Virus record (IMG/VR): IMGVR_UViG_3300044715_001611
Location: 1-64,000 of that record
DNA from: a virus
Direction: 5' to 3' (one strand)
DNA length: 64,000 nucleotides
Shown here: piece after piece, positions 14,958-64,000 of the stretch
Numbering within the stretch: the first letter of the stretch is position 1
How the letters are laid out: each line of letters starts with the position of its first letter
The notes under the pieces: model-generated
Database searches by the model: none
Seen by the model: the letters and a program-made list of their open reading frames with translations, nothing else
What the model was told of the DNA's origin: nothing
Program-made: the position numbers and the translations under genes

Positions 14958-15422
14958 GATATGTCTTCGAGACTCGAAGCCGCCGGGTCCAATATCGCGC
15001 GACATGCGGGAGGAAATGCCTTGGGCGGCGCTGCTGTGGGTCTGGGTGTGGGCCTCAACCGTATTGCGCGCAAGGGTTACGCAAATATGGATACAAAAGA
15101 AATCCTGTTGCATCTTCTGGCGCTGCCGGTCGCCGGGGCAGGGATTGGTTCCGTGACAGGTGCGGGACTGTCGGGTTTGCATGGTTTGATCCTCCCAAAG
15201 CAGGTGATGCAGGATTTACGCGAAGAGCAGGAAAGTAAAAAGAAGGCGTCCATCAGCCCGCGTCTTTTCGGCGCCTACCTTTCCACTGTCAAATCGGCTC
15301 ATCAAGGTATTTCCTCCGGGCATGCAATTAAACAGGATGAGGAAAAGGCGCGGCGCGCGAAGCTCAAGAAAGTGGCATCCATCAACCCCCGCATCTTCGG
15401 CGCATTGATCGCGCAGCTCTGA
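14910..15422 (+). CDS. Protein built around three NPRLFGA peptides
   Basis: A 170-residue protein. MNPRLFGAYLSTVKSA at the N-terminus is followed by a Gly/Ala-rich hydrophobic region (residues ~35-95) with two possible membrane-associated helices. A second copy, ISPRLFGAYLSTVKSA, lies at residues ~115-130, and a shorter third copy, INPRIFGALIAQL, forms the C-terminus. Each internal copy is preceded by KKKAS or KKVAS. The start has a weak SD (gggag) and the ATG is fixed by the recurring peptide. The layout suggests a precursor cut into pieces or a protein carrying repeated targeting signals. Confidence 0.65.
   Translation: MNPRLFGAYLSTVKSADMSSRLEAAGSNIARHAGGNALGGAAVGLGVGLNRIARKGYANMDTKEILLHLLALPVAGAGIGSVTGAGLSGLHGLILPKQVMQDLREEQESKKKASISPRLFGAYLSTVKSAHQGISSGHAIKQDEEKARRAKLKKVASINPRIFGALIAQL
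15252..15299 (+). repeat. NPRLFGAYLST peptide repeat, copy 3 (internal)
   Basis: Encodes ISPRLFGAYLSTVKSA in the middle of the protein, with different codons from copies 1 and 2, so the conservation is at protein level. Confidence 0.75.
15381..15404 (+). repeat. NPRLFGA peptide repeat, short C-terminal copy
   Basis: Encodes INPRIFGA five residues before the stop; a degenerate, shortened copy. Confidence 0.6.
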
Positions 15423-37148: not shown

Positions 37149-37675
37149 CCAACATTTTCCCATCCCGCGGATGCATCTACGCATTCCAGCAGCAGGGCAA
37201 TTCCGTGGGCTTCTATGCCCTGAATCCTCCCATCACCAGCAGCAACGCAGCACCGGTGCTCATCATGGGGGCCAGCCTGCAGGACCCGGACGTGCTGGTC
37301 CCCAAGAACACCCTTGATAATTTCCATGTGCTTTACAGCTTCGGTGCCGGCTTCGGTTCGGTGAACATCATGGGCGTTGCCCTGCTGGGAAATGAGAAGT
37401 CCGGCGGCAAAAGTTTTGCGGAGGTGGTGAAATGGTTCCAGAAGAACCGGGCATCAAATTTGAAGAAACCAGTGCAGCTCTCCCTTCCCGGCAAGGTGGC
37501 CTACAATGTGTACATTTCGGGGCTCGTAGTCGGGCAGATTGACCCCAAATTTCACACGCAACAGTTTGTCTTGGGTGGTATTGTCGCGGAGACTTCTTCC
37601 GGCCCCGCAGCCGGACGCAAGGATGGCTTCACCGGCCTGACCACCGGAAGCCTGACCACCTCGTCCTTGTCCTAA
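37145..37675 (+). CDS. Tube-like or baseplate hub protein
   Basis: A 176-residue beta-rich protein (GCIYAFQQQGNSVGFYALNP; KVAYNVYISGLVVGQIDPKF) ending in a Ser/Thr/Gly-rich tail. It overlaps the tape measure stop by ATGA. Small beta proteins in this position of contractile tails are often tube-initiator or hub components with a tube-like fold. No family is recognised; the call is by size, fold character and location. Confidence 0.5.
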   Translation: MTNIFPSRGCIYAFQQQGNSVGFYALNPPITSSNAAPVLIMGASLQDPDVLVPKNTLDNFHVLYSFGAGFGSVNIMGVALLGNEKSGGKSFAEVVKWFQKNRASNLKKPVQLSLPGKVAYNVYISGLVVGQIDPKFHTQQFVLGGIVAETSSGPAAGRKDGFTGLTTGSLTTSSLS

Positions 37676-37688
37676 ACTCTTAAAAACC

Positions 37689-38426
37689 ATGAGATGCGAA
37701 CTACTTCAATTGCTGGTCAATGGTGATGTTCCCGCGAGTCCGTGGTTTACGCCAGTCACCCCATTTGACCCTGTGACTGCCTCCGAGGAGGCGACGGCGG
37801 TTCGGGACCTCCTGAAGATCACCGACGCCACCTCGGACTATTTTGCAATGAGCGTGCTGCGGTGTCTGGTAGGCACTCCGACATTGCTGCATGAATTCGG
37901 AATTGAGTCTGCTACGTCAATGGCGTGGCAGCTCTACCGCAATCCGCGACTGCAGCTTCCGCAGACCATCACATTGATGCCCGACAGGAACGGCGCACCG
38001 GAAGCAAACAGGCAGGTGTCCGACTGGCCTGTGTCTGTAGATTTTCAATTGCTATGCGTCGAGCCGAAGGCCGCGCGTATTTCCTGCGGCGGCCGATCGG
38101 AGCAAGTGCATGCGTTCTTTACCAATGAGGACCTGTTTGTGGAATGGCCTTCCTGGGTTGGACTCAAAGGGGCATTGCGGTTCCTGGACGGCGTTAAGCA
38201 CTGGACTCCCTCCTACGTCATTGCGTTCAAAAACATCCCTGCCAATTATCCGACGAGGGCGGCATTGGCGGCCCTGCAAAAGACCACCGCGTGGCTGACG
38301 CTTCTTGAGAAACAGAACCTGCTTCAGCATTACATGGGTGCCGGTGTGGATGTGACAGAGCGGATGGCCCTGGTCGCGCTGGCTTTGATTCGGGACACCC
38401 GCATGCGTATTCCATATGAGCAGTAA
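37689..38426 (+). CDS. Baseplate-region protein
   Basis: A 245-residue mixed protein. The N-terminal half is helical (TAVRDLLKITDATSDYFAMS), and a Pro/Arg-rich middle is followed by a C-terminal helical domain (ALAALQKTTAWLTLLEKQNL). Position between the tape measure and a hub-like gene suggests a baseplate or tail-end component. It overlaps the next gene by 11 bases. No family identified. Confidence 0.5.
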   Translation: MRCELLQLLVNGDVPASPWFTPVTPFDPVTASEEATAVRDLLKITDATSDYFAMSVLRCLVGTPTLLHEFGIESATSMAWQLYRNPRLQLPQTITLMPDRNGAPEANRQVSDWPVSVDFQLLCVEPKAARISCGGRSEQVHAFFTNEDLFVEWPSWVGLKGALRFLDGVKHWTPSYVIAFKNIPANYPTRAALAALQKTTAWLTLLEKQNLLQHYMGAGVDVTERMALVALALIRDTRMRIPYEQ

Positions 38427-39933
38427 TATCTCATTCAGGGAGCCAAAGGTCAGCGGGGATGTGGGCGGAATCAAGCTGCGCATATCCGGAGCGCAGACGA
38501 CGATGACGATCAATGAGATGCCGTCGTTGGCACTTTCTGTGCATCCGCAGGGAGTCAGATCAGGCGACCTGGTGGACCTGAGTTCTCCCGACATTACCAA
38601 ATGGCTCGCCCAGAATCAGACCCAGAAGTTCACGGACCTGACCACCGTCAATGTGTATCAGGATTCTGGATCCCGGAATTATCTGACTACCGCCGGGCTG
38701 CTCACGACGTCCGCTTACGAAGCGTCAAAAAGCTCATTTGAGGTGCATCTGGCACTGGCGACGAATGCGGCCTATTTGCAGGCTCTGCGCACCCACATTT
38801 ACCGGACGGAGGGCAACGAGGCAAAGGACGACGATGAGCTGCTGCATGCGACCAGCATGGCGGAGATGTTCAGCCTGGTGCTCGACCGGCTGATCAAAAA
38901 ATGGATTGAGAAGGCGAACGCGCGGACTGTCACAATGGCAAAGCTGGACGCGAAGATTATGGATCAGATGCATGCAATCAACGAGCAGCACAAGACCAAA
39001 TGGCAGCGTCTGTTCAGCGACAGCACGGCAACCACCAAGCTGCCGTTTATGCCGGACATGACGCAGGACATAAATGAGAAGATTCAGGATACCATCCGAC
39101 AGGTGTTTCTGACGCAGGGACGGGATTTCTTTCAGCAGATCCTGACGCTCTGCGAAATGTTTAACCTGCTCTATATTCCCGACGTCGGGGGAACAGACGC
39201 ACCCTATGGGCGTTTAATCTCAAAGGACGCGGTGATGGGAGAGACTGCGCCCGGTATTATTTCTGCGACCCATTTCACATCCAGGCTTGGGGCCTACGAT
39301 GTGGTGCCCCTGGCTGCCGTGGTGGTCGTCGGGCAGGGCACGGAGAATGTGAAGGAGTCCGGGTCGGATAAAGGAATGCCAACGGCCCCGGTGTATGCTA
39401 CGTGGCCGAATCCGCTGCCGGAAAAATCAAACGGGCGATTCGAGCAAATCCCATTGCCCGTCTGGTTGCCTGCCATTTACGGTCCGTTGGATATGGATGA
39501 CGCGGTCAAGGAGGCCAACGCGATGGGGTTGGATGCGAATGAATACATGCGCACAAAACACAAGCCGCGCAAAGACAGCATGGATAAGCAGCAGACGGCG
39601 CAGAGGAGCATCCTGGCGTGGTGGGCTCGGCTTGCGTATTTGGACATAGCCTTGGGACGGGATACGCTGAGCCTGGACATTCCGTTGGATTTTAGGGCGC
39701 AGCTCGGATACCGATATGCTGTGACCGACCGCAACAAGAAGAAGATGTTTACTGGCTTCCTGGCACACATCGCGCATTCCGTGGTGGTGGGTGAGGACAG
39801 CGAGAAATCCGCAACCGGCGACGCCACCACCAGCCTCGTGTTCACGCATGTGGAATGTGAGGGGTTCGTGCTGCCCAACAAGGGCGCTCCATTTAATGCA
39901 TTGCCGAAGCCACCGGAGATCGCCAAAGAATAG
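38416..39933 (+). CDS. Putative baseplate hub protein
   Basis: A 505-residue protein. The N-terminus has beta segments (VGGIKLRISGAQTTMTINEM; PQGVRSGDLVDLSSPD), a helical middle, and a C-terminal segment with LDIPLDFRAQLGYRYAVTD and FTGFLAHIAHSVVV that resembles the tube-like domains of gp27/gpD hub proteins that contact the spike. Position downstream of the tape measure agrees. The resemblance is weak and by pattern only. Confidence 0.5.
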   Translation: MSSNISFREPKVSGDVGGIKLRISGAQTTMTINEMPSLALSVHPQGVRSGDLVDLSSPDITKWLAQNQTQKFTDLTTVNVYQDSGSRNYLTTAGLLTTSAYEASKSSFEVHLALATNAAYLQALRTHIYRTEGNEAKDDDELLHATSMAEMFSLVLDRLIKKWIEKANARTVTMAKLDAKIMDQMHAINEQHKTKWQRLFSDSTATTKLPFMPDMTQDINEKIQDTIRQVFLTQGRDFFQQILTLCEMFNLLYIPDVGGTDAPYGRLISKDAVMGETAPGIISATHFTSRLGAYDVVPLAAVVVVGQGTENVKESGSDKGMPTAPVYATWPNPLPEKSNGRFEQIPLPVWLPAIYGPLDMDDAVKEANAMGLDANEYMRTKHKPRKDSMDKQQTAQRSILAWWARLAYLDIALGRDTLSLDIPLDFRAQLGYRYAVTDRNKKKMFTGFLAHIAHSVVVGEDSEKSATGDATTSLVFTHVECEGFVLPNKGAPFNALPKPPEIAKE

Positions 39934-39935
39934 CC

Positions 39936-42926
39936 ATGACTGATCCACGCGACATCGAAAGGGCCAAGCGCCGCAACCTGAATCCTGGGTGCGCAGTTCC
40001 GGCTGCAGTTCCGGCGACCGCCATCACACCACCCACGCGGCCCGTATCGAATTGCGACGTACCTCCTGCCATTGCCGCGGATGCTTTCGACACCCCCGGA
40101 GCCACGGTCACCGCAACAGACATCTCCACTGACATCCCGCTGATTCATATCACCAGCGCGGCCGTCACGGTCAATTGCTCCGATGTGGAGGGGGCCGGTC
40201 CGGTGGGTGAGTCCGTCACGATAAATGCCGGGCAGATCGCCAGGGATATTTCCTGGCATTCATTTGCGGGAATCTCAGCGTCGCAACTGGCATTCATCGC
40301 CACGCTCAATCCGCTGGACGTTACCACAATTCTCACGCAATCCACGGCGGAGGCCGTCGCCGGCGCGTTCCGCCTGGCCTTGGAGCAGGCGGTCATTGCG
40401 CGGACGGCAGCCCTGACAGCCCTTGCCGCTGCCAATGCACAGGCCCGCGCCATTGCGGTCGCAACCCTGACTTGCGGATGGGTCAATGAACGGCAGGAGA
40501 CCAATTGTGCCGCGGGCGCCTATCGCACGCCGGAAGATCCCGACCACGTTGCCATCAATCCCTCCGTCATTTCCGCAGGCTCCTCGTTCTCCACGCAGAG
40601 TCAGAACACGGCAAATGCGCAGGCCTTGGCTGCCGCTTTTTCTGCCATGGTGTGCGTGTATCCGAACACGGAGCAGACCGTCACGTGTCTGGATGCTGGG
40701 TTTGGGGAGGAAGTTCCGGTGGATGCTACGCCGTGGCCTGCACTCGACCAGATGCGAGTTGGGATAATCACCGTGCCGGCTGGTCGGGTCCTGTCCTCGG
40801 ATTCCGCCGCAGACGCTGATCAGCAAGCCCGCGCGCTGGGTCTCTCGCAGCTTTCCTGTTTCGCCATCAATGAGTTCGTCAAGGTGAGCTGCAGCGCGAG
40901 CGGAAAGCCAGGCACAGACGACACCATTGTCAGCGATTTGACTTTGGGAATCCCCGGCAATTCCGTTGAGGTTCCGCAAGGATACCTGACCTCCACGACT
41001 TCCACCGCGGACGCAAATGCATTGGCCCATGCGTTGGCCATGTCCCTGCTCCAATGCCGATGGACCAATTCCGAGATTGTCGTACAGTGCCCCGTTCAAT
41101 CCGTGCCGGATCCGCGTAATCCAGGAGCCACCGTGCTTTTGGATCCCTCGGACAAATCGCCAGGCATCCAGTTTCAAATGGCGGCCGGATCTTACTACTC
41201 CGAGGTGTCCCAGGTGGACGCAGACCAGCAGGCCATGGATGCTGCGCTGGCGCAATTGAACTGCATGTACTGCAACCAGGACATCGCTCCGACCTGCGTG
41301 CCGGAGGGAATTGCCCAGCAGGTGCGGGAGGGTGTCATCCCATTGCCCATCCCCGCGGCGATGGTCACCTCGGCCTGGTCCTCAGATGCCACGCTGGGCC
41401 TGGCGGCCAACACCTACTGCGACACGGACGCCTCGGTGGTGGAGATGACGGCCGGAAGCGCTCTGGTGGTGCCTGCTGCAATTCCCACCAACGACTGCAA
41501 ATACGGCAACGATGCACAGACCCTGCACTGCCCATCCGGGATGGTTGCCGCAGGGGCGGAGGATTTGTCGGGCGTGTTCATCGTTCCCGTCGGTACTTTT
41601 GTCGTGTCCGTGGCGGATGTGCCGCCCACGTTCCGACCTGGGGAGACGGATAGGGAAAAGGCCTTTGCGAATGCGCAGGCCGCGGCGTTCGGTATTTCCA
41701 CCCTGGCTTGCAGCTTCCAGAACGCAGCACGCTCATTTACCTGCTCGCAGGACAAGGGGATGCCCCACGTGCATCCGAACTCGCTTGGTTTGGATTCCGC
41801 CCCCTTGGTAATTCCAGCGGGGCAGTTTACCTCCCTGAACTCCCAAGCCGAGGTCGACGCCGAGACTCAGGCTTACGGCATGTCCCAATTGCTGTGCTTT
41901 TACATGAACCGACGGATGACGGTTCTCTGTGGGGACTCTCCCGCCGATGAATTCCGTGGCGGGGGATACAGCGACACAGGTGATCGGATCGCAATCACAT
42001 ACGGCACCGGGTCCATGACCCCGAAAGACGGCAGCTCACCAAAGGTCGCCGTGGATGCGCAGTCTATGGGCGCTGTGGGAAATCCTGTGCAGGTGGAAGC
42101 GGATACGATCCTGGACTGGCACAGCCAGCGTGACGCGGATCAGGCGGCGCTTACGCTGGGTCTGAATTCCTTGAATTGTTTTTGGTCGAACGTGGACGTG
42201 CGCGTGACTTGCGGCGCCCCCGCGCAAATGCCGTGGGTGCCAGGCAATGCACTGGGCGCTCCCATCTCCGTCGGGCTGGGAATATCGGCCATCGGACATG
42301 TGCCCGCAGGTGCTTTCATCAGCGATATATCAATCAAGGCCGCATCATCCACAGCCTACGCCGTGGCCTATGGGATACCGGATTGTTTTAATTTCGGGAA
42401 TGAGTTTGATTTGGGATTGGTGGGTAATGATGAATATGTAGCCGGCGATTGCGGGGAAGGTCGTCACAGTGTCGGGATGATGAACGTCCCCAAGAACACC
42501 TTCAAGGCCTCTACGAAAACCGCCGCCGATAAAATGGCCACCGACTTCATCGAGGCCAACACCATCTGCGAAGCGAATGCCGCCAGCGCAGGCAATACGG
42601 AGCAGTCGCCCGCTGCCTGCACCCCGATCTACCTCGGCTACGGTGTATTCTCAAATAGCCACCGTGTCGGATTGACCAAAATTCCCGCCGGCACCTTCAA
42701 GGCCGACACTGTAGCGGAGGCCGACACGCTGGCCTCGGATTTTCTCTTGGCCAACACCAGCTGTGAAGCGGATGTCACCGTGGATGTGCTCGTGGATTTG
42801 CGGTTGTCGGGCGGAAAGCTGCAGGGGAAATACAAAACGGTGACTGTGGCCGCTTCGGTGGCTGCCTCGCCCGAATGGAGAGATATGGTCACGACGATGA
42901 CCAGCTCTCCCGCAACATGCCCATAA
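39936..42926 (+). CDS. Cysteine-repeat fibre/adhesin (DUF5977-like repeats)
   Basis: A 996-residue protein. After an N-terminal ~160 residues, presumably for attachment, it consists of roughly 11-12 repeats of ~65-90 residues. Each has a segment like FSTQSQNTANAQALAAAF or SSDSAADADQQARALGL, followed in nine copies by the exact pattern C-x3-N-x6-C (CGWVNERQETNC, CVYPNTEQTVTC, CFAINEFVKVSC and others). The F-x-S-x-x-S-x-A-D-A-x-x-x-A part resembles DUF5977. Paired cysteines suggest a disulfide ladder formed outside the cell, or metal sites. A host-surface binding fibre attached to the baseplate is the likely role. Confidence 0.65.
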   Translation: MTDPRDIERAKRRNLNPGCAVPAAVPATAITPPTRPVSNCDVPPAIAADAFDTPGATVTATDISTDIPLIHITSAAVTVNCSDVEGAGPVGESVTINAGQIARDISWHSFAGISASQLAFIATLNPLDVTTILTQSTAEAVAGAFRLALEQAVIARTAALTALAAANAQARAIAVATLTCGWVNERQETNCAAGAYRTPEDPDHVAINPSVISAGSSFSTQSQNTANAQALAAAFSAMVCVYPNTEQTVTCLDAGFGEEVPVDATPWPALDQMRVGIITVPAGRVLSSDSAADADQQARALGLSQLSCFAINEFVKVSCSASGKPGTDDTIVSDLTLGIPGNSVEVPQGYLTSTTSTADANALAHALAMSLLQCRWTNSEIVVQCPVQSVPDPRNPGATVLLDPSDKSPGIQFQMAAGSYYSEVSQVDADQQAMDAALAQLNCMYCNQDIAPTCVPEGIAQQVREGVIPLPIPAAMVTSAWSSDATLGLAANTYCDTDASVVEMTAGSALVVPAAIPTNDCKYGNDAQTLHCPSGMVAAGAEDLSGVFIVPVGTFVVSVADVPPTFRPGETDREKAFANAQAAAFGISTLACSFQNAARSFTCSQDKGMPHVHPNSLGLDSAPLVIPAGQFTSLNSQAEVDAETQAYGMSQLLCFYMNRRMTVLCGDSPADEFRGGGYSDTGDRIAITYGTGSMTPKDGSSPKVAVDAQSMGAVGNPVQVEADTILDWHSQRDADQAALTLGLNSLNCFWSNVDVRVTCGAPAQMPWVPGNALGAPISVGLGISAIGHVPAGAFISDISIKAASSTAYAVAYGIPDCFNFGNEFDLGLVGNDEYVAGDCGEGRHSVGMMNVPKNTFKASTKTAADKMATDFIEANTICEANAASAGNTEQSPAACTPIYLGYGVFSNSHRVGLTKIPAGTFKADTVAEADTLASDFLLANTSCEADVTVDVLVDLRLSGGKLQGKYKTVTVAASVAASPEWRDMVTTMTSSPATCP

Positions 42927-44563: not shown

Positions 44564-45322
44564 GTGACTGCGCCAAATCCCAGCGAAGATGACAAGCCAT
44601 TAAAGGAGCCGCCTCCCCACATGGCTGCGCATGCTGCGTGGATGGCTGACGCCTCGCCCACCAATCTGTCTGCGACGGTGAAGCATTTGGAACCTACCAT
44701 TCAGGGGGTGTTGCGTTCCATGAATGCCGCCCAGGATCCAGCCCTGACTCTGCAGGCGCGCATCCTCACATCCCGCGCCGTCAAATCCTACGACCCAACC
44801 TACGGGGCCGCGCTGCCCACGTGGGTGTCCCAGCAATTGCAGCCCCTGCGTAGGTTTCGCCGGATGAACCTGGCGCATCCGGTCCATGTGCCTGAGAAGA
44901 TCCAATTGGACGCCTTTCATCTGATGCAGTCCGAGAATGAGCTGCGCGATTCCCTTGGTCGCGATCCGGACGTCGAAGAGTTGGCGGACCATTCCAAATT
45001 GCCCGTGCACCGAATTGCAGGCATCCGCAAATCTTTCCGGCGGATGGCCTCGCAATCTTCCTTCGGGGAGAATGCGGCAATGCCCTCGGACACCCAGTCC
45101 GATCATTCCGATGAGGCGCTGCACTACGTGCACCATGAATCCGATCTGATTGACCGGAAGATTCTGGAGATGAAAACCGGGTATGGCGGAGCCCACGAGC
45201 CGATGCTTCCGCATGAGATTGCTAGAAAGCTAAACCTGTCCCCGGTGCAATTGAGCCGGCGGTCGGCCAAGCTGGCCACCAAGCTGGAGGAATTGAGGAC
45301 CGCACTGCAAACCGTCAATTAA
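44564..45322 (+). CDS. Sigma-70-like factor (regions 2.4-4)
   Basis: A 252-residue protein. AVKSYDPTYGAALPTWV resembles the region 2 segment Y/F-D-P-x-x-G-x-x-F-S-T-Y. HPVHVPEKIQL and ELRDSLGRDPDVEELADH match region 3 (I-P-V-H ... L-G-R-x-P-T-x-E-E-L-A). The end, LPHEIARKLNLSPVQLSRRS, matches the region 4 helix-turn-helix. Regions 1 and 2.1-2.2 appear missing or diverged. It starts at GTG. Sitting among baseplate genes, it is probably expressed late and may direct the phage polymerase. An alternative is a sigma-fold protein reused in the virion. Confidence 0.75.
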   Translation: MTAPNPSEDDKPLKEPPPHMAAHAAWMADASPTNLSATVKHLEPTIQGVLRSMNAAQDPALTLQARILTSRAVKSYDPTYGAALPTWVSQQLQPLRRFRRMNLAHPVHVPEKIQLDAFHLMQSENELRDSLGRDPDVEELADHSKLPVHRIAGIRKSFRRMASQSSFGENAAMPSDTQSDHSDEALHYVHHESDLIDRKILEMKTGYGGAHEPMLPHEIARKLNLSPVQLSRRSAKLATKLEELRTALQTVN

Positions 45323-49227: not shown

Positions 49228-49254
49228 TAGCCGGGGGTGGGTGGGGTGAAATAT

Positions 49255-49281
49255 GGACGCCCAGCGCGTCATATACAAATG
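49255..49281 (+). promoter_or_regulatory. Promoter-like repeat A
   Basis: Contains GCGCGTCATATACAAATG at 49264-49281, preceded by GGACGCCCA. Nearly the same sequence occurs at 54722-54749 and, with fewer matches, at 54290-54307, each at an intergenic boundary. The AT-rich CATATA core in a GC-rich setting suggests a phage promoter. Confidence 0.6.
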
Positions 49282-49331
49282 TGAAGAAGGCTTCCTCTTC
49301 CATCCCGCAGCGCGCGTTGTGCGCTCCGGAT

Positions 49332-49853
49332 ATGGGCGGTCCATCCGCCTCGGGTGCTCCCGTGACAGAGCCGCTGCCCTACGGGTGTGTGGGCACTCGC
49401 GCCGAAGCGGAGGCGCAGAAGGCGCAAGCCCTGACGCGCGGTGCTATCACCGCGCAGGTTCACCACCTCGACGCAATCCCCGAACAGCGCCGCGATTTCC
49501 CCGCGGTGGGGGTCGCTGAGGCCGCCATTCTCAGCGATGGCACCTCCGAGGAGAGGGCGGCGCTGGCGTGGGCTCAGGCGTCGTATTGGGCGCGTGGCGG
49601 GCGCACACTCGATTCAATCGTCGAGTGTCTCGCCTCGGACCTGGAGGAGGGAACCTCCAATGGCGCCGGTAGCGAGGCGCACGGCTTCATTGCCGCACTG
49701 GAGCGTCGGCTGGAGGCGGCTCCGCGTGAGTCGCGGGTAGTCGTATCAGCACGCGCTGAGTGCTGGACGGTGGCGGCGGAGTTCCCGGAGGCGGACGGTC
49801 CCGATACTTCGGGTTTTGCCCACGGGCAGGACTTCGAGGGAGGCAGCTGGTAG
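49332..49853 (+). CDS. Hypothetical accessory protein
   Basis: A 173-residue protein from the ATG at 49332 (MGGPSASGAPVTEPLPYGCV). An in-frame GTG at 49281 would add 17 residues but lies inside the promoter-like repeat, so it is less likely. Ala/Glu/Arg-rich, helical (GGRTLDSIVECLASDLEEGT; SEAHGFIAALERRLEAAPRE). The gene is more GC-rich than its neighbours and almost lacks the AATTG words common elsewhere, consistent with a different origin. Function unknown. Confidence 0.55.
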   Translation: MGGPSASGAPVTEPLPYGCVGTRAEAEAQKAQALTRGAITAQVHHLDAIPEQRRDFPAVGVAEAAILSDGTSEERAALAWAQASYWARGGRTLDSIVECLASDLEEGTSNGAGSEAHGFIAALERRLEAAPRESRVVVSARAECWTVAAEFPEADGPDTSGFAHGQDFEGGSW

Positions 49854-49978
49854 TAGTAATGGCCCCGTGAGCCGATAAAGAAACGGCAGAATTTACAACG
49901 ATGCAGTCATAAAAAGAGCTGCGGTCGAATCGTTGAGTTTCCACTGTGAAAAGGAAACTGTGTAGATGAGGAATTTTC

Positions 49979-50293
49979 ATGAAATTCATCAATCTCACAC
50001 CACACGCCATTCACCTGAATGACGGCCGTGTGTTCGAACCCTCTGGCCAGGTGGCCAGGGTCGGCTCGACCTACACGCCGTTCGACGGTGACGGTGTCTG
50101 TCAGGCTGTGTTCGGAGAAGTCCAGAACCTGCCCGACAAGGTGGAAGGAACGATGCTCATCGTCTCCGGAATGGTCAGCCAAGTGGTTGACGGTTACCGG
50201 AGCGACGTAGTGTCGCCTGCCACCGGGCACCCGGACACGAAGCGTGACGAGAAGGGCCAGATCAAGTCTGTGCCCGGATTCGTCCGCGCGTGA
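49979..50293 (+). CDS. Conserved small phage protein with own SD
   Basis: A 104-residue protein, MKFINLTPHAIHLNDGRVFE at the start, then VARVGSTY, FGEVQNLPD, VSGMVSQV, DVVSPATG and VPGFVRA near the end. I recognise this layout (N-L-T-P-H-A followed by V-x-P-A-T-G) from small phage and bacterial proteins of unknown function. Unlike most genes here it has a clear SD (GAGGA) seven bases before ATG. A hairpin (GTTTCC/GGAAAC) lies just upstream. This supports a separate origin for the cassette. Confidence 0.65.
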   Translation: MKFINLTPHAIHLNDGRVFEPSGQVARVGSTYTPFDGDGVCQAVFGEVQNLPDKVEGTMLIVSGMVSQVVDGYRSDVVSPATGHPDTKRDEKGQIKSVPGFVRA

Positions 50294-50510
50294 CCGAGGC
50301 GTGTGCTGCTGCATTTGGCAAGCGGGGCTCTGGCGAGCCTGTCAACAGAATCGCCCGGCACCATACAGACGCCTCTTCGTGGCGGTGCTAGAAACCGACA
50401 ATTACGTCGGGCCAAGTCTCAGGTGATGGTCAAAAGAAGTGCCTCACCGCCCTCCCCGGAATCCCGAACCGGCGGTTGTAAAGTCGTGAAAGGCGGCAAG
50501 GGGATGGTTA

Positions 50511-50774
50511 ATGACAAAACCACCAGTGGGTAAGGCGGAAATCCAAGAAATCGACGGACGGCGGTTCTTGGTGGCGGAGTTGCCCGCCGAAACGGCAACC
50601 TGCGATGATCACATCGCAGAGCTCGTCGCCGGCCGCCCGGTCGTAGTGCCCTTTAGCAAAAGAGGGCACATGATCGGGAGGTTGAAGGCCCAGGGGGTCT
50701 TTACCACCTCAAAGCAGGTGGTCGCGGGGCAGTGGATCGCATTCTTCCCGTGTGCGCCGCGGGAGTGGAAGTAG
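50511..50774 (+). CDS. Small hypothetical accessory protein
   Basis: An 87-residue beta-rich protein (EIQEIDGRRFLVAELPAETA; GRPVVVPFSKRGHMIGRLKA) with an SD-like AAGGGGATGG upstream of ATG 50511. It is the last gene of the 49.3-50.8 kb cassette and is followed ten bases later by a terminator. The 217 bases between this gene and the previous one hold only a weak out-of-frame reading frame that I do not support. Function unknown. Confidence 0.6.
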   Translation: MTKPPVGKAEIQEIDGRRFLVAELPAETATCDDHIAELVAGRPVVVPFSKRGHMIGRLKAQGVFTTSKQVVAGQWIAFFPCAPREWK

Positions 50775-50783
50775 CGGTCCGTC

Positions 50784-50832
50784 AGCGGGAATTGTCCGGG
50801 GGTAATTCCCCGGCGGTTCCCGCTTTCTTTTA
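50784..50832 (+). terminator. Intrinsic terminator of the accessory cassette
   Basis: AGCGGGAA pairs with TTCCCGCT and an inner CCGGGG pairs with CCCCGG, giving a two-stem hairpin followed by TTCTTTTA. Confidence 0.85.
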
Positions 50833-50864
50833 GGTGTGGCATCCCTGTCAGACCGCGGACCTGC

Positions 50865-50889
50865 GCCCCTTTTTTTTTCGCTGGTAGTT
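50865..50889 (+). repeat. Dispersed terminator-flanking repeat, copy 1
   Basis: GCCCC, nine T, then CGCTGGTAGTT. The same order, with five T and CGCTGGCAGTT, occurs at 54647-54667 after the next terminator. Confidence 0.65.
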
Positions 50890-50929
50890 CCCACGCCCCA
50901 AGATTCACATTTGGCTTTGCAGCATTACG

Positions 50930-51367
50930 ATGTCATGCTTGGTGCAATTCGACATGCTCACACTCGCCCGCCAAGCCCTCGTAGATTTCACCGCCGACGA
51001 CGCCTCCGCGTCCCAGCATTCCTGGCCCTTGAAGGTGGACGTGACACAGGACATCGGCGGTACCTTGTCGCCCAAGGTGTTCGTGTTCCATGCGCTGTTG
51101 CGGGATGCTGCATCAGCCGGGGATCGCTTCGAGGCAATTGCTTCCATCCACCAAATGGCTGATTTGCCCGAGGACGCCCCTTCCTACACGCCCGGCAATG
51201 ACTACGCCATTCCGTTCTACCGGCTCAGCTCGCTGACGTTCCATTGCACCTCCCCGACCGAGGCCGATGATCTGTGGGCGATCATCCAGGCAGACGTGAC
51301 TGATTTGATCGAGGCGCACAATTCCCTGCTGTCCCTGCAGACCACCGAAACCATTTCCATCCCGTGA
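50930..51367 (+). CDS. Hypothetical protein
   Basis: A 145-residue mixed protein starting MSCLVQFDMLTLARQALVDF; the second Met (MLTLARQ) is an alternative start. It has beta segments (LSPKVFVFHALLRDAA) and an acidic helical end. Its codon pattern, with AATTG words, returns to that of the main genome. It overlaps the next gene by GTGA. Being next to that small beta protein it may be a minor tail or head-completion factor, but nothing specific supports this. Confidence 0.55.
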   Translation: MSCLVQFDMLTLARQALVDFTADDASASQHSWPLKVDVTQDIGGTLSPKVFVFHALLRDAASAGDRFEAIASIHQMADLPEDAPSYTPGNDYAIPFYRLSSLTFHCTSPTEADDLWAIIQADVTDLIEAHNSLLSLQTTETISIP

Positions 51368-51753
51368 GCACCCCATTCGTATTTGCAATCCCCGGCATGA
51401 TGCCGCCTGCCACGCCCCACAAGGATGCCCAGCTTCCTGTATTACGGGATGGATCGGCACGCATGTCCCTGGGAATATCCGCGGGCGAGAATCTACGCCC
51501 GGCGATCATTGACGTGTTCGATGCCAAGGGGGTGCATCTCTATTGCGACAATACCGGCACGCATACGCTAGAGGTCACACAACCCGGAGGCCTCGCCGAG
51601 TACATCCAGCAATTCCCCGCCGGCACATTCCCACCGACGCCATGCAAGGTGTTCGTCACTTTGAAATCAGGAGATCAGATTGAAATGGTGGCAGGGCCGA
51701 CGGATGTGGAGCGGGCGGCATTTATTTGGCCTTGGGTGCCGCCGGAGAGCTAG
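51364..51753 (+). CDS. Hypothetical beta-rich protein
   Basis: A 129-residue protein from a GTG overlapping the previous stop. Strand-rich, Pro-rich (MMPPATPHKDAQLP; FPAGTFPPTPCKVFVTLKSG), with the look of a small virion protein. Its stop overlaps the stop of the convergent minus-strand gene by two bases, leaving no room for a terminator between them. Function unknown. Confidence 0.55.
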   Translation: MSTPFVFAIPGMMPPATPHKDAQLPVLRDGSARMSLGISAGENLRPAIIDVFDAKGVHLYCDNTGTHTLEVTQPGGLAEYIQQFPAGTFPPTPCKVFVTLKSGDQIEMVAGPTDVERAAFIWPWVPPES

Positions 51754-54227
51754 CTCATCTCCACAATCTTCGGCAGCCCCTCGTAGTTCATCGGCGGTGT
51801 CTTGCCTCCGTAGAAATTCTCCAGCAGCCCAATCATGCTGTGCACGTCCGCCGTGCAAATGCCGTTCTCAATGGAGGCGCTGCGGCATTCACGCGTCATC
51901 TCCAGCAGCAGGTCCTGCAGGTCCACGTCCTTGATGGTGCCCAGCCGGATGGAGATGGTCTGGTTGGTGATGTGTTGCGTGAAGAATTCGGTGCCTCGGG
52001 CAAAGGGGATCTGATTGAGCAGGCGCTCAACGGTCTGATGCAGCGGCTGGGACATGGGCCATTCGAGGCCGGTGGCATTGCGTATGATGGAGGCCCCCTC
52101 CCGCGCCAGTGCCGCCGAATTGCTCACGCTGCTGAATACCTTCAGGGCCGACCCCTGCGTGCCCATAATCCATTGCACACATTGCTGCATAATCCGCGGC
52201 ACCATGAGCATCACCCGGCTCATCGTCGCATCGTCCACCGCACAATGCACCGCCTGCCCGTAATCGCTCAAGGACACAAGTGCCTGTTTTGATTTCTCCA
52301 TCTGCCCCTGTGAGGCGCCGGTGACGAGCATGGGGAATCCTCGGCAGCCTTTGATCTCCACGCTGGATCCTTCCCGCGAGGAGAACGAGTATGGCTCCAA
52401 TTGCCCAAGCGCCCGGAACAAATTGCGCATGATGTAATTGCCCTCCGGGGTGTAGATCAGACAGACCGGTTTCGTGGGGAAATCGGCGTAGCCACGTCCG
52501 ACCATGCCAACGAGCTGGCTGATCAAATCTGCCACTGCCACGGGCACATCGGTCGTATTCTCGCCAGGCACCGGGGTCAGGGTGAGATCGTAAATTTTCC
52601 AGAAATCGCAAAGTGGATTGCCGTAGCGGATGTCCGGATTCCATTCCTTCGCCGTGACCTTGCCCCATGGCGTCATGAAGGCTTTGCGGCGCTCCGTCCA
52701 GCCCACGCCATCCAACCCCTCCACGCGCGGCAGGTTCTCGCTGATGGATCGGAAATAGACCAGAAGCTCCCTTGCATAATTGCGCTCGCGAATTGTTGGA
52801 AGTTTTCCGGCGGGATTATCTTCCGGCTTCGCCAGCTCCGACACACGCGCCGCATCTTCCAAAGTACTGAGTGCCTGCAATTGCTGACTGGTGAGCGAAA
52901 ACGGATATTCCTTCCCCTGAAACTGCAGGACGCCCATGTGACAGGTCGCCTTGGAATCCACGAACACCACGTTGTTGCGCAATTCGAGGGTGAAATTCGT
53001 GAGGTCCACTTTCGAGCCATCATCCCGGATGACATGATAGCCGTGGGCGGTGCGGTAATAGGAAAGGCTGCCGTCCTGGTGGATGAGCCGGGTCTGCCGG
53101 ATACGCTCGACGGTGGCGGCCCAGTCCAGCTTCCCGTCCTGCTGCAGCTCGGAGATTAGCGCGGTGTAATGCCGGTCGCTGTATCTCAGGGCGCTGATGA
53201 GTAGCCCCACGCCCGCGTCCACCCCCTTTCGCGCATGTGCTGCCTCCGCCACATGACGCACCACAAAATCATCCCAGGTTTCTAATTGATCATCCTCCGC
53301 CCGCTTCACGCTCACCCTCCCATTGATGGCCAACTCCGCCACTCCCGAGAGCCCGGCCGCGGATTCCTTTCGTAGATGAAAAGTCACTTCCTGCGGCTCC
53401 CACAACTTCTCCGAGCATTTGGGGCGGTAATGCACGCAGACCGCGAACCGGTCCCGAAAGGCCACGGCATTGACCGAATTGGCAGCCAGCGCCATGGAGT
53501 CGCTGGTGTGCAATTCGATGCGCTGACAATGCGGGTGAATGTCCAGCAGGCCGGTGTAGGCGAAGCGGCACTCATTGAGCCAGTTGACGATTACATCCTC
53601 GGGCCGTCCTGAAGGGTAGGCCATCCACCCCGTAATCACCGCCGGCGAGGAGTACAGCGGAATCACCACCGCGGCCTGGGAATTGGAAATGGGAAGCGGG
53701 GAGAGGGTGGCGTCCGGGTAGGCCGTGGTCGCCTTTTTGACGAACTCCTTGTAGCGCGCCCCGCTCAGCACCAGACACGAAGCGGACTGCGCTGCGATTT
53801 GGATGCCAGCGGTGCGCAGCCAGCCTGCCGTCTGCACCTCTGCAATCATCATCGAATTGCCCGACATCTCGGAGGCTTCCAGCAGGAATTGAATCAGGGC
53901 CCGGCGGTCCTCCAATTGGTGGGCAATCTGGCTGATGTCCGGATCGGGGTCGTGGGCGAAGCGGGAAGGGTAGGCCGTGAGGACGCTTTTGACGGCGGTT
54001 TTGTATCCGCCATCCAGCAGGGCCATGAAGTCCATCGCCGTGCCTACACGGAACTTGCAGCGCTTGTGTTCGCAAATGGCGTAGGTGGAAAAGGCATGCA
54101 GGGCGCCTCCACAGGACGGGCATTTGAGCAGCAGGCTGCGCGTGCCGCTCGTGACTTCCCCTTTGTGGAAATCATGAAGCACTTCGAGCATCGTAATTGA
54201 TCGTTCGAGAAACTCAGGTGAGAGCAT
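51750..54227 (-). CDS. Zinc-ribbon primase-like DNA replication protein
   Basis: An 825-residue protein from ATG 54227 (MLSPEFLERSITMLEVLHDF); a TTG at 54266 would add 13 residues. The N-terminus carries a four-Cys zinc ribbon, C36-x2-C39-x11-C51-x4-C56 (CPSCGG ... CEHKRC), followed by FMALLDGGYKTAVKSVLTAY, the style of DnaG-type primase zinc domains. Residues ~180-290 (AAVVIPLYSSPAVITGWMAY; IELHTSDSMALAANSVNAVA) could be a diverged toprim-like region. The C-terminal ~350 residues are large and mixed and may be helicase- or loader-related, but no clean Walker A motif is visible. It is one of two minus-strand genes in the window, consistent with separate regulation. Confidence 0.5.
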   Translation of the reverse strand: MLSPEFLERSITMLEVLHDFHKGEVTSGTRSLLLKCPSCGGALHAFSTYAICEHKRCKFRVGTAMDFMALLDGGYKTAVKSVLTAYPSRFAHDPDPDISQIAHQLEDRRALIQFLLEASEMSGNSMMIAEVQTAGWLRTAGIQIAAQSASCLVLSGARYKEFVKKATTAYPDATLSPLPISNSQAAVVIPLYSSPAVITGWMAYPSGRPEDVIVNWLNECRFAYTGLLDIHPHCQRIELHTSDSMALAANSVNAVAFRDRFAVCVHYRPKCSEKLWEPQEVTFHLRKESAAGLSGVAELAINGRVSVKRAEDDQLETWDDFVVRHVAEAAHARKGVDAGVGLLISALRYSDRHYTALISELQQDGKLDWAATVERIRQTRLIHQDGSLSYYRTAHGYHVIRDDGSKVDLTNFTLELRNNVVFVDSKATCHMGVLQFQGKEYPFSLTSQQLQALSTLEDAARVSELAKPEDNPAGKLPTIRERNYARELLVYFRSISENLPRVEGLDGVGWTERRKAFMTPWGKVTAKEWNPDIRYGNPLCDFWKIYDLTLTPVPGENTTDVPVAVADLISQLVGMVGRGYADFPTKPVCLIYTPEGNYIMRNLFRALGQLEPYSFSSREGSSVEIKGCRGFPMLVTGASQGQMEKSKQALVSLSDYGQAVHCAVDDATMSRVMLMVPRIMQQCVQWIMGTQGSALKVFSSVSNSAALAREGASIIRNATGLEWPMSQPLHQTVERLLNQIPFARGTEFFTQHITNQTISIRLGTIKDVDLQDLLLEMTRECRSASIENGICTADVHSMIGLLENFYGGKTPPMNYEGLPKIVEMS

Positions 54228-54289
54228 GTTCGATGTCAGCCTACGCCTCAAATTGCTTACGGGCAATCCCCATGAAATACGGGGCGTTT

Positions 54290-54307
54290 GCGCGCCATAT
54301 ACAAATG
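54290..54307 (+). promoter_or_regulatory. Promoter-like repeat B
   Basis: GCGCGCCATATACAAATG, differing from repeat A by one base, lies 49 bases before the small membrane protein gene and 63 bases from the divergent start of the minus-strand gene. Confidence 0.6.
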
Positions 54308-54309
54308 AC

Positions 54310-54328
54310 GAAAGCGACTCTCGCTTTC
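54310..54328 (+). promoter_or_regulatory. 5' leader hairpin
   Basis: GAAAGCGA and TCGCTTTC form a perfect 8-base stem with a CTC loop, two bases after repeat B and 27 bases before the ATG; possibly an mRNA-stabilising leader structure. Confidence 0.55.
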
Positions 54329-54355
54329 ACACCAAACTCAACCAAAACAACTCAA

Positions 54356-54607
54356 ATGAAAAAATTACTGATTATAATCCTGCTCGCGGTCGCGTTTCTG
54401 ATTTGCCGCACCGGCCTCCCCACGGAGGTGACGTTCGAAAACCTCGCCATCCGCAAAGGCGCCGGTGTGGTGGACCAGGCAGCCGCACGGCTGCTGCTGG
54501 TGGTCATCAAACCCACCATCAAAGACTACGTGGTCTTCAAGACCGCGGAGTGGAAGAGCCTGACATTGGTCTGCTTGCCATTCGGCAAGTGGGGCACGTT
54601 GGAGTAA
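54356..54607 (+). CDS. Small exported or membrane-anchored protein
   Basis: An 83-residue protein. MKKLLIIILLAVAFLICRTG is a signal-type sequence: two Lys, a hydrophobic core, then Cys-Arg. The Cys after FLI is a possible but non-canonical lipobox. The rest is small and mixed (VVDQAAARLLLVVIKPTIKD). The A/C-rich leader (caaaacaactcaaatg) lacks SD, unlike the 50 kb cassette. It is followed by a terminator and preceded by repeat B, so it is a single-gene transcription unit, a layout seen for superinfection-exclusion or host-takeover proteins. Function unknown. Confidence 0.6.
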   Translation: MKKLLIIILLAVAFLICRTGLPTEVTFENLAIRKGAGVVDQAAARLLLVVIKPTIKDYVVFKTAEWKSLTLVCLPFGKWGTLE

Positions 54608-54616
54608 AATTCTCGC

Positions 54617-54656
54617 GCGGGGGCGTTATCCCCCGCAGGGGCAGGTGCCCCTTTTT
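54617..54656 (+). terminator. Double-hairpin terminator
   Basis: GCGGGGG/CCCCCGC is followed at once by GGGGCA/TGCCCC and TTTTT. Confidence 0.88.
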
Positions 54657-54667
54657 CGCTGGCAGTT
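54647..54667 (+). repeat. Dispersed terminator-flanking repeat, copy 2
   Basis: GCCCC, five T, then CGCTGGCAGTT; matches 50865-50889 apart from T-run length and one base. Confidence 0.65.
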
Positions 54668-54668
54668 T

Positions 54669-54712
54669 TATCCCAGGTCATGCGTAACCCAGGATACCGC
54701 ACACCTGGGATA
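54669..54712. promoter_or_regulatory. Inverted repeat, operator candidate
   Basis: TATCCCAGGT at 54669-54678 and its exact complement ACCTGGGATA at 54703-54712 flank a 24-base spacer that contains CCCAGGATACC, a partial third copy. It lies 10 bases before the GGAC of promoter-like repeat C. Confidence 0.5.
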
Positions 54713-54721
54713 CGCGAAATA

Positions 54722-54749
54722 AGGACACGCAGCGCGTCATATAGAAATG
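54722..54749 (+). promoter_or_regulatory. Promoter-like repeat C
   Basis: GCGCGTCATATAGAAATG at 54732-54749, preceded by GGACACGCA, matches repeat A over about 27 bases with four differences. The next gene starts 377 bases downstream. Confidence 0.6.
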
Positions 54750-55125: not shown

Positions 55126-57120
55126 ATGAAAACTCAAGAACTCAAACCCATCACAGGAACCGTCAGCAAGAAATTTATCGAGAAGGTCGATCGGTATTTC
55201 AACCACAGCAAGGAGACCATCATCGTCGAACTCATCCAGAATGCCCGACGTGCCGGAGCCACGGAGATGCGCTGGACCATCGAGCCCGCCGGCCCTGAGC
55301 AATGCAGCATCACCGTCACCGACGACGGCTGCGGCGTCGAAGATCCGGCAGTGCTGCTCACACTCGGCGAATCAGGTTGGGATGCAGGCATTCAGACGGA
55401 CGAGGATCCCGCCGGTGCCGGTTTCTTTTCGCTCTGTGGTCTGAGCGGGGCCGTGCATGTCTCCAGTCACAACTGGCGTATGACGCTCGACAAGGCCATC
55501 TTCACGCACGGGAAGGAGACGCTCCCCTGCGCCACCAAGTCGCCCATCAAAGGCATGCGGCTGGAATTCATCACGAATGCGGAGAAGTCGGAATACTACG
55601 CGCACCATACCGCGGTAACTCGATGGATGGACGCTGTGGAGAAATGCTCCAAATACTGCGGGCTGAAAGTCAGCATCAACGATAAGCGCGTAAAGCAGGA
55701 GGATTTCCTGGCGGACGCAGAAGCGGTGGTGGAATGGAACGGTATCCGTATTGGGATTCACAATCGCCAGAAGCTGAGCGGCTATTCACTGGACCATGAC
55801 GCGAACACCGCAAACTTCCATGGCTGCGTGCTCGCCACACCCAAAATGCCCGAAGTCGGGGATTTCGGGAATGACGGCAAAAGCAAATATGCCGCAATCT
55901 TGGACATCCGGAACACCCAGCACATCAAGCTGGTCCTGCCGGCGCGCAACGGGATCTTACAGGATGCCAATTGGGAATTGCTCAAGACGCACATCGAGCG
56001 CCTGCTGGTCGAGCACGGACTGAAGCGGCACGAAGGGAAACACCGGATGCCGTTTACGACGTATCAGCGCTTCAAGGCCATCGGCGTCGAATTGCCCGAG
56101 GCAGTGTCGTATTTGAAAGCAGTCTGCATCAAATGCCGTGACCATTATTCGGAACTGCAATACCCGGAGTTCGACAACGACATGGATCGTCGCGTGGATG
56201 TAAGGCATGGCCATCCGGTGCTGGTTCCCAATCTGGACGACAACGGGCTGAATCTGACGATGGCAATTGCCTTTGCGTGTAATTCGGTTTCTGTCACACC
56301 CGAGATTAAAGCTGAAGGTGGTTTCGATGTGGACGGTGCATTTGAACTACCCAAATTGGATGATTGCCTGAATATGCAATTCGTCCGCGCCAACGGCAAT
56401 TTCAGCGGGTATTCCTGGTATGACCGCCTGCCGTTCATCGAGGAGGACTCCGTGAAGTTCACGGTGAAGCAGGGCAAGCATGGAGTGTACACGAGCGAAG
56501 GCCAAAGCGACGCCCTGCATATGCCGCAGGGCCCGGATGAGCTGGCCTCGGAGATCCTGGTGGATTTCATCATCGAAAAGCCGGTGAGGGACAAGGGGAT
56601 GGGCGAGAAGCGAGCACACATCAATCTGCAACTGGAGACAGTGGCGTATTTCCGCACCGCCGACTGCTCGCATGTGGAGGACGGAAGCTGGGCATTTGCA
56701 AAGGCGTTACTCCCGGCGGATAGCGGAGCCGAGGCGAACAATGCGCAGACCAAGGAGCGGGACATCCGCAGCCAGGCGGAGAACTGGATGTTGATTGCCT
56801 TCTGCGATCCACCGGATGATTCGGATCATGAGGACAGCACCGCTGATGCGCAAAGCACCTGGACCTGCCGGAAAATGAAACAGGTGCTGCTGTCCCCGGA
56901 GAAGGCGTTTCAGGAGGCCATTGAGGGTCAAGTTCGATCGCTGCTCAGCTCGGATGAATTCAATAAGGCCCGTCGCAAATCTGGAATCATCGGGTTGACT
57001 GTGGACTTCGAATATGGCGATCAGCGTCCGGTCGGAGAGAAGCATTACAAATACTCAGAGAACAAGATGACGATTACGTTTCACAAGAAGGAAGCAACAA
57101 CCATCAAAGGTAAATGCTGA
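55126..57120 (+). CDS. GHKL (Hsp90/MutL-type) ATPase
   Basis: A 664-residue protein. The N-terminal ATPase has the GHKL motifs in order: ETIIVELIQNARRAGATEM (E35 and N39 of the N box), TDDGCGVEDP (D66/G68/G70, G1 box), LTLGESGW, then PAGAGFFSLCGLSG (G2-type lid Gly at 97-99). A second mixed domain follows to ~330, and the C-terminal half is unrecognised. Such phage ATPases are related to Hsp90, MutL and MORC proteins; a chaperone-like or DNA-directed role is possible, and so is action against a host defence. The leader (acccaacaaccaacccaaatg) is A/C-rich with no SD. It overlaps the next gene by seven bases. Confidence 0.8.
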   Translation: MKTQELKPITGTVSKKFIEKVDRYFNHSKETIIVELIQNARRAGATEMRWTIEPAGPEQCSITVTDDGCGVEDPAVLLTLGESGWDAGIQTDEDPAGAGFFSLCGLSGAVHVSSHNWRMTLDKAIFTHGKETLPCATKSPIKGMRLEFITNAEKSEYYAHHTAVTRWMDAVEKCSKYCGLKVSINDKRVKQEDFLADAEAVVEWNGIRIGIHNRQKLSGYSLDHDANTANFHGCVLATPKMPEVGDFGNDGKSKYAAILDIRNTQHIKLVLPARNGILQDANWELLKTHIERLLVEHGLKRHEGKHRMPFTTYQRFKAIGVELPEAVSYLKAVCIKCRDHYSELQYPEFDNDMDRRVDVRHGHPVLVPNLDDNGLNLTMAIAFACNSVSVTPEIKAEGGFDVDGAFELPKLDDCLNMQFVRANGNFSGYSWYDRLPFIEEDSVKFTVKQGKHGVYTSEGQSDALHMPQGPDELASEILVDFIIEKPVRDKGMGEKRAHINLQLETVAYFRTADCSHVEDGSWAFAKALLPADSGAEANNAQTKERDIRSQAENWMLIAFCDPPDDSDHEDSTADAQSTWTCRKMKQVLLSPEKAFQEAIEGQVRSLLSSDEFNKARRKSGIIGLTVDFEYGDQRPVGEKHYKYSENKMTITFHKKEATTIKGKC

Positions 57121-62949: not shown

Positions 62950-63712
62950 ATGCCATCGGCAGATCGCCGCCAATTACCCCCAAAAACCAGAGCACGAGTT
63001 CTTCATCCTCTCCGACGGCAGCGGCTACATTGACGGCTTCGCCGGTGCGGCCGTCATAGTCTACAGCCCTCAGCATTGCTTCTGCGATCTGAGCACCATT
63101 GCATGGTCCGGCGGGGACACGGAGAGAGCAGAGTTTGAAGGGCTGCTGGCAGGTCTGCAGGGTATCATGAATCGTTGCAAATGGGACAATGGCGATGATT
63201 TCCAGATGCTGCGGATGAAGCGTCCGCTGGTGCATTGGTTGACGGACAGAGAATCGCTGGCCCTGGCCGTCGCCAGGAAGCCCGACGGCTCCACTTTCTA
63301 CCGCCGCAAATCCACCCCTGACCTATGGGCCCGGTTCGAGTGGTATGAGGCGATGTTCCGCATCACGCCGCATTACGAGTCCCGCAATGCCACGCCGGTG
63401 TTCCGCCTTATTGATCGGATGGCCTCGGACATGCGCGAGATGATGCAGCGGTATGCCGCAGCCTGGCCGCAGGATTTGAAATGGATGAGCGGCTACGAGA
63501 AAATATGGAAGGCGCCGGAATTGTTCGAGACGCACGTGGATGCCATGATCACCGCGCTCACGCCGATAGATCATATTGATGCCGAGAGGGAATCTCAGAT
63601 GCTGGCGATCCTGGGCGCGGATGTGTATCCAATCGTCTTGCAGACCGCCCGGAACGAAATTGCAAATGCGCCAATTGAGCGCCAGCACAAAACAAACAAA
63701 CCATTGTTATGA
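62912..63712 (+). CDS. RNase HI-like nuclease
   Basis: A 266-residue protein. Residues ~28-120 follow the RNase HI pattern: FFILSDGSG (D35), beta strands GFAGAAVIVYS, ERAEFEGLLAGLQGI (E74) and HWLTDRESLALAV (D112). This is the D-E-D metal-binding triad of the fold with the right spacing. The C-terminal ~140 residues are a separate helical domain. In phages such proteins remove RNA primers or R-loops. The stop overlaps the sigma factor start by ATGA, linking the two genes. Confidence 0.7.
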   Translation: MSAAPTTESHATECHRQIAANYPQKPEHEFFILSDGSGYIDGFAGAAVIVYSPQHCFCDLSTIAWSGGDTERAEFEGLLAGLQGIMNRCKWDNGDDFQMLRMKRPLVHWLTDRESLALAVARKPDGSTFYRRKSTPDLWARFEWYEAMFRITPHYESRNATPVFRLIDRMASDMREMMQRYAAAWPQDLKWMSGYEKIWKAPELFETHVDAMITALTPIDHIDAERESQMLAILGADVYPIVLQTARNEIANAPIERQHKTNKPLL

Positions 63713-64000
63713 TCGCTACTGAAGTCCCTGATGATTTACCAGAAGACCAACCACACCATCCTGACAATCCCCCGGAGCTGGTGGAGAAGCTAGTAACCGA
63801 GAACATACGCCTGGTTTCCCACATGCTGAAAGAATGGGGGGCGTTGCGTGGAGATTCGGAATATGACGATTTGTTCTCCGCGGGTATGCTTGGATTGTTC
63901 CACGTTAGCCGGCGGTTTGATGTCAGCCGTGGATTCAAATTCAGCGCTATGGCCTGCCTAGCTATTCGCCGTGAGATGTGTAAAGTCTATACGGCCCGTC
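63709..64000 (+). CDS. Sigma-70 family factor, N-terminal part (runs past window end)
   Basis: The ATG at 63709 overlaps the upstream stop; 97 residues are visible. LVEKLVTENIRLVSHMLKEW, YDDLFSAGMLGLFHVSRRFD and VSRGFKFSAMACLAIRREMC form sigma region 2 (conserved D-L-x-S-x-G-x-x-G-L and F-D-x-x-x-G-x-x-F-x-x-x-A). It is the second sigma-like protein of the window and, unlike the one at 44564, has a complete region 2. Confidence 0.82.
   Translation, partial: MIATEVPDDLPEDQPHHPDNPPELVEKLVTENIRLVSHMLKEWGALRGDSEYDDLFSAGMLGLFHVSRRFDVSRGFKFSAMACLAIRREMCKVYTAR

Follow-up and report, generated by a model that had tools for sequence, protein, structure and literature searches.

The 64,000-base window analysed here covers positions 1-64000 of a virus record of 185,656 bp (IMG/VR IMGVR_UViG_3300044715_001611, an uncultured 185.6-kb phage called G000 below) and carries dispersed repeats that are very probably copies of a phage-specific two-box promoter. 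The full element reads TGAAATA-N16-CATATAnAAATG, with a −35-like upstream box and a −10-like downstream block. The presence of two boxes, their invariant spacing, the orientation of the copies with the genes, their placement in gaps and their conservation despite drift of the boxes together lead us to this reading. An earlier note on the same DNA had already proposed a phage promoter family, and fixed spacing, orientation, gap placement and recurrence at orthologous gaps in two relatives bear it out. Judged from sequence, the family is supported as real, new in sequence and of a known kind.

The repeat was originally described as GCGCGYCATATASAAATG, which matches the + strand exactly at 49264-49281, 54290-54307 and 54732-54749 (within copies A, B and C, Table 1). 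Allowing three mismatches still gives three matches, against 0.12 expected from dinucleotide shuffles. The 12-nt core by itself is not significant (nine matches against 4.85 expected, with two mismatches allowed), and it is therefore the longer match that matters. Across the 34 positions from GAAATA through ATG, copies A and C share 30, slightly more than the approximately 27 bases claimed at first. The CATATA block on which the earlier note centred is a real motif but only the −10-like half of the element; the TGAAATA box and the copies outside the window had been missed. This box was found by aligning extra + strand copies recovered in a half-motif scan of the whole record.

In leave-one-out scoring with a position weight matrix, each of the seven firm G000 copies ranks first with 24-43 bits; other positions reach at most 14.8 bits in the whole-record scan and 20 Markov genomes at most 14.9. 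Iterating the matrix at a low threshold overfitted and drew in coding sites, and the copies were fixed by the leave-one-out scores. A gap-tolerant scan of G000 (4-60 nt between the boxes) placed all eight sites, including the marginal copy H, at the single spacing of 16 nt. The remaining hits were one coding site per strand and, upstream of copy A, another match to the left box; on the minus strand nothing similar appeared except the one coding match. A blind dyad search of 100 upstream regions returned GAAAT-N18-ATATA as its top pattern, present in six regions compared with 3-4 in shuffles. When IMG/VR was scanned for the exact pattern, with the gap either loose or fixed, only AT-rich coding chance matches and the same virus came up.

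All eight G000 copies are intergenic and lie on the + (coding) strand, in a genome of which long gaps make up only ~16%. The whole-genome motif search suggested by the earlier note thus does yield more copies, and their placement is not random. We predicted ~213 genes in G000, 209 of them on the + strand, with a simple home-made hexamer-based gene caller whose start codons are approximate. The three copies in the window all sit in gaps between genes, at transcription-unit boundaries as first claimed. Copy A falls between a stop at 49227 and a start at 49332. Copy B occupies a divergent gap between the minus-strand gene 51750-54191 and the plus-strand gene 54356-54607. Copy C lies between a terminator-like hairpin (54637-54652) and a GHKL-ATPase gene (55126-57120). 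Shuffled DNA contains no fewer such terminator-like hairpins, which are weak evidence taken alone. Downstream of copy E lies a near-perfect 57-bp palindrome (134676-134731), to judge by its sequence a very strong terminator-like hairpin. The idea that the conserved TG is the start codon of leaderless genes was ruled out, as copy A reads ATG-TGA and copy G reads GTG-TAG.

Using the C-terminal piece of the RNA polymerase (RNAP) beta subunit of G000 (131503-133407) as a two-sequence profile, we collected 44 loci from a clade of large phages. The closest relative (L155 in record G007, 122 kb) is 53% identical in this piece and carries its own version of the element, TGCAATA-N16-TATATATATTTG. A search of the whole record found four copies, none reversed, and all four are intergenic and oriented with the genes; one of them, at 11514, is immediately preceded by a hairpin carrying a T6 tail. 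When this pattern was run on the 28 other clade records, G007 alone gave a comparable set. We then scored G008 (L156, 125 kb, 53% identity) with a matrix derived solely from G000 and G007, and its three top sites read YGCAAAA-N16-TATATARAAWTR with the same 16-nt spacing. All three are on the + strand; two lie in gaps, and the third overlaps the beginning of a divergent gene's called start. The element is carried by 2 of the 28 other clade records (G007 and G008, both partial genomes), never reversed, and was not found in G001 (L132, 52% identity). Contigs G002, L152 and L154 are identical to the G000 virus and uninformative for this comparison. The upstream box drifts from TGAAATA in G000 to TGCAATA and TGCAAAA in the relatives, and the spacing is fixed at 16 nt in all 14 sites of the three phages; other spacings were allowed and none was found.

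Three gaps carrying the element are orthologous among these phages. The first lies beside the minus-strand gene 51750-54191, where copy B corresponds to G007 116287 and G008 99557. In the second, after the gene for the C-terminal beta piece, copy E corresponds to G007 27861 and G008 40073. In the third, before a GNAT-domain gene (128237-131269), copy D corresponds to G007 19529 and G008 33154. Equivalence in the last two cases rests on gene order, because beta and the element are separated by a non-conserved gene (HNH-like in G000, an unrelated one in G007) and the distance from element to GNAT-domain gene varies between 1 and 2 kb.

The geometry resembles that of a sigma-70-family promoter, with TGAAATA in a −35-like position exactly 16 nt from a TATA-like −10 block, YATATAnAnnTG. 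Transcription would proceed in the + direction from a point a few bases past the second box, near the conserved G of ...ATG or ~3-4 nt further on, and each copy would open one transcription unit in its gap. If the invariant G of the terminal TG is +1, the upstream box occupies about −34 to −28 and the downstream one about −11 to −6; taking TATACA/TATAAT as the −10 shifts +1 3-4 nt later. We infer that RNA starts at the boxes and that a phage sigma-like factor reads them, working with either the phage's own split beta/beta' polymerase or the host polymerase. Two sigma-70-family genes of G000 come into question (Table 1). The protein encoded at 44564-45322 has conserved counterparts in G007, G008 and Salmonella phage Arash (gp10), and the clearer family member at 63709-64371 went undetected in G007 and G008, which are partial genomes. 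Because it is kept in both relatives, the former is the better candidate for a shared promoter and, we infer, the best candidate specificity factor.

Three observations weigh against a promoter. The motif is absent from 26 of the 28 other clade records scanned; such absence would also be expected of a fast-drifting promoter. There are only 7-8 copies for the ~213 genes, and other promoters must therefore exist. Finally, palindromic character is stronger in the G000 spacers than in GC-matched DNA, and nothing about a promoter would lead one to expect this: the 17-nt spacer folds at −5.4 kcal/mol compared with −2.6 ± 0.69 for GC-matched 17-mers of the genome (0 of 3000). This palindromicity is a post hoc observation and is not consistent in the G007 spacers.

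Of the alternatives, the one that survives best, though we consider it rather unlikely, is that the copies are host sigma-70 promoters of the ordinary type, perhaps aided by a phage activator at the TGAAATA box, for which T4 MotA at middle promoters is the model. The −10-like half is rich in TATA, with a perfect TATAAT in copies D and F, and the GAAATA-to-TATAAT spacing of 18 is inside the sigma-70 range. However, a consensus scan (TTGACA-N16..18-TATAAT) gave no match at copies A, B or C, the −35-like box is conserved and differs from TTGACA, and the boxes drift together between phages. The activator version overlaps with our preferred explanation, as it is still a phage-specific promoter. A more specific form of the phage-promoter reading makes the element the promoter of a sigma-dependent phage multisubunit RNAP, in which the clade's split beta/beta' enzyme, carrying intein-like inserts at the catalytic centre, would use the 44564-45322 protein as its sigma-like subunit to read TGAAATA-N16-YATATA; we advance this only tentatively.

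We regard it as improbable that the conserved blocks are the junction strands of a small leader RNA (three-way-junction or ribozyme-like) with hairpins between and after them. The palindromic G000 spacers and the hairpins right downstream of several copies would suit such an RNA. The spacer length is nevertheless invariant, the stem offsets differ from copy to copy, folding of the element as a whole does not exceed background and Rfam has no match at the element sites. The earlier note had paired copy B with a perfect leader hairpin, and the 8-bp hairpin GAAAGCGA-CTC-TCGCTTTC does stand just downstream of it (−10.1 kcal/mol, z −6.7). As a feature of the family it does not hold: copies A and C have no downstream hairpin beyond shuffle level (z −0.06 and −0.4). 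A family-wide leader hairpin starting at +1 was rejected, downstream folding being only marginal against the gap background (p 0.04-0.10). In G007 downstream hairpins are absent or displaced, and two of the four spacers lack any stem. Since neither spacer nor leader hairpins are conserved, structured RNA is disfavoured; the specific idea of a three-way-junction RNA or ribozyme, prompted by inverted repeats in the first copies, was ruled out by the gap-tolerant scan, the folding controls and the relatives.

Equally little probability attaches to a non-promoter binding site for a phage DNA-binding protein (a regulator, replication or packaging site). A bipartite, dispersed, intergenic element with dyad character in its G000 spacers might be so explained, but the copies are oriented with the genes (7/0, 4/0 and 3/0 in the three phages), unlike an orientation-free site. 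Moreover, the second box is TATA-like in a −35/−10 geometry, and the copies occupy gaps that need promoters, one of them divergent. Chance or functionless copying of a short mobile repeat is hardly credible: the likeness of A and C exceeds what the boxes require, as if from recent copying, and G000 has homing endonuclease genes, but the boxes stay while the spacers differ in nearly all other copies, and elements recur at orthologous gaps of phages only ~53% identical in the polymerase.

Table 1. Copies of the element and related features; coordinates refer to G000 unless another record is named.
Feature	Coordinates	Strand	Details
Copy A	49247-49281	+	TGAAATA 49247-49253, 16-nt spacer, CATATACAAATG 49270-49281; upstream of open reading frame (ORF) 49332-49853
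Copy B	54273-54307	+	TGAAATA 54273-54279, 16-nt spacer, CATATACAAATG 54296-54307; upstream of ORF 54356-54607
Copy C	54715-54749	+	CGAAATA 54715-54721, 16-nt spacer, CATATAGAAATG 54738-54749; upstream of ORF 55126-57120
Copies G, D, E, F	102329, 126193, 134451, 139772 (first base of TGAAATA)	+	firm
Copy H	158539 (first base of TGAAATA)	+	marginal, rank 5
Perfect 8-bp hairpin	54310-54328	+	just downstream of copy B
Terminator-like hairpin and T tail	54637-54660	+	between ORF 54356-54607 and copy C; splits the B and C units
ORF of 813 aa	51750-54191	-	function not assigned; adjoining divergent gap holds copy B
G007 ortholog of 51750-54191	113756-116215		E 4.6e-24; element beside it at 116287-116321
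G008 ortholog of 51750-54191	97029-99557		E 1.5e-39; element beside it, from 99557 on
Beta, N-terminal part	102974-107179 and 107176-107904		RNAP beta homologs
Beta, C-terminal part	131503-133407		RNAP beta homolog
Beta' with active-site region	162107-165493 (L011:4107-7490)		RNAP beta' homolog
Beta', C-terminal part, with intein-like insert	1698-4754	+	Rpb1_5 5.4e-13; Hint 7.6e-7; LAGLIDADG_3 5.9e-12
Divergent sigma-70-family protein	44564-45322	+	PHROG 351 sigma factor 3.3e-9; Pfam Sigma70_r3 6.5e-6
Clear sigma-70-family gene	63709-64371	+	63709-64000 in the window, ends outside it

Both large polymerase subunits of G000 are recognisable (Rpb2_6 6.2e-54, Rpb1_2 7.5e-11, Rpb1_5 5.4e-13), and a scan of cellular genomes with the polymerase piece found no relative. 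In 162107-165493 an intein-like insert lies inside the catalytic motif (...NLDFDGN/CVKVGTKIM ... LAGLIDADG ... NGLVVFD/TMNAHV..., slashes at the insert borders); N stands at the third catalytic Asp position and the insert ends in D, and splicing as drawn would leave DFDGN in place of DFDGD. The insert in 1698-4754 is in the trigger-loop region (LNVKH/CLKEGTMV ... NGLIVKN/TAGVAGKK). The 1401-aa ORF 102974-107179 (L008:1974-6176) fuses the region of the beta N-terminal part with an Acb1/2H-phosphoesterase-like domain and DUF6624. In G008 the beta C-terminal gene (37090-40017) is broken by ~1 kb between query residues 462 and 455, an interruption that may be an intron, an intein or a homing insert.

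The genome setting offers further observations. A 95-bp direct repeat at both ends of G000 suggests a complete, circularly mapped genome of ~185.6 kb. Many ORF starts are preceded by A-rich leaders without a Shine-Dalgarno sequence (AATCAAATGA, CAACAACCAA), which points to a host group with Shine-Dalgarno-poor initiation. Related short DNA repeats at 8365-8420, 14910-14956, 15258-15419, 172898-172953 and 173598-173641, near several ORF ends, encode a similar peptide (e.g. NPRLFGAYLSTVKYA), possibly a shared terminal tag. A D12-class (Dam-like) adenine methyltransferase gene (140263-141339) lies downstream of copy F. In the window, 50357-50423 matches an HDV-like ribozyme (RF02682) over its full length but below threshold, scoring 29.1 bits where the gathering cutoff is 44 (E 0.0007 with 201 bp searched). 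Ahead of it, at 50300-50360, the 3' part of alpha-tmRNA is weakly matched. The pair is reminiscent of phage theta ribozymes beside tRNAs (PMC10879173).

The mReC phages are Caudovirales that encode beta and beta' RNAP subunits (Weinheimer and Aylward 2020, PMC7481178). As a ~180-kb tailed phage from IMG/VR with recognisable beta and beta', G000 very likely belongs, on its gene content, to the same broad group. Transcription initiation in this group appears to be undescribed: the words promoter, sigma and intein are absent from the main text of the clade paper (PMC7481178), which treats neither promoters nor sigma factors. Because these phages carry their own RNA polymerase pieces and sigma-like factors, the element is a testable candidate signal for a poorly known machinery. 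The conserved bipartite promoter is ready template DNA and the conserved sigma-like protein a candidate factor, so that sigma use by the phage polymerase is directly testable in vitro. Were the phage RNAP sigma-dependent, it would differ from the phiKZ and AR9 enzymes; were only host polymerase and a phage factor involved, the element would be an ordinary phage promoter class.

The closest annotated relatives in the beta piece (32% identity) are Salmonella phage Arash (OQ632216) and Vibrio phages D69, D181 and D148, and sigma factors are annotated in Arash and D69. We did not see the G000 motif in Arash. Its start sites have motifs of their own, GTATAAGTA preceding many genes on the minus strand and TTATACCC preceding some on the plus strand, which are probably Arash promoter classes.

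In RNAP-encoding jumbo phages, AT-rich motifs detected bioinformatically upstream of operons, varying by phage, were later confirmed as early promoters (PMC7598289); that of AR9 is AAATATATATTAT-N6-G (PMC5312081). The G000 element is similar to the phiKZ and AR9 early promoters in being an over-represented, AT-rich, phage-specific motif upstream of operons in a genome with multisubunit RNAP genes. Those early promoters, read by the virion multisubunit RNAP, consist of one AT-rich block of ~10 nt near −10, whereas G000 adds a conserved box 16 nt upstream. The phiKZ and AR9 enzymes also act without a recognisable bacterial sigma, whereas G000 encodes sigma-70-like proteins, which are usual in jumbo phages without RNAPs (PMC7598289). 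The late promoters of phiKZ (TATG) and AR9 (AACA-N6-TA/G), used by the non-virion RNAP, likewise come from phages with their own beta/beta', but the 14 aligned sites conform to neither consensus. Bipartite promoters are found in phages that supply a sigma factor or an activator, as at T4 middle promoters with their MotA box and at those read by SPO1 gp28. The G000 boxes differ from theirs in sequence, and factor homology was compared only at the level of the sigma-70 family; the likeness lies in two boxes at a fixed spacing, a phage-specific upstream box and a TATA-like −10.

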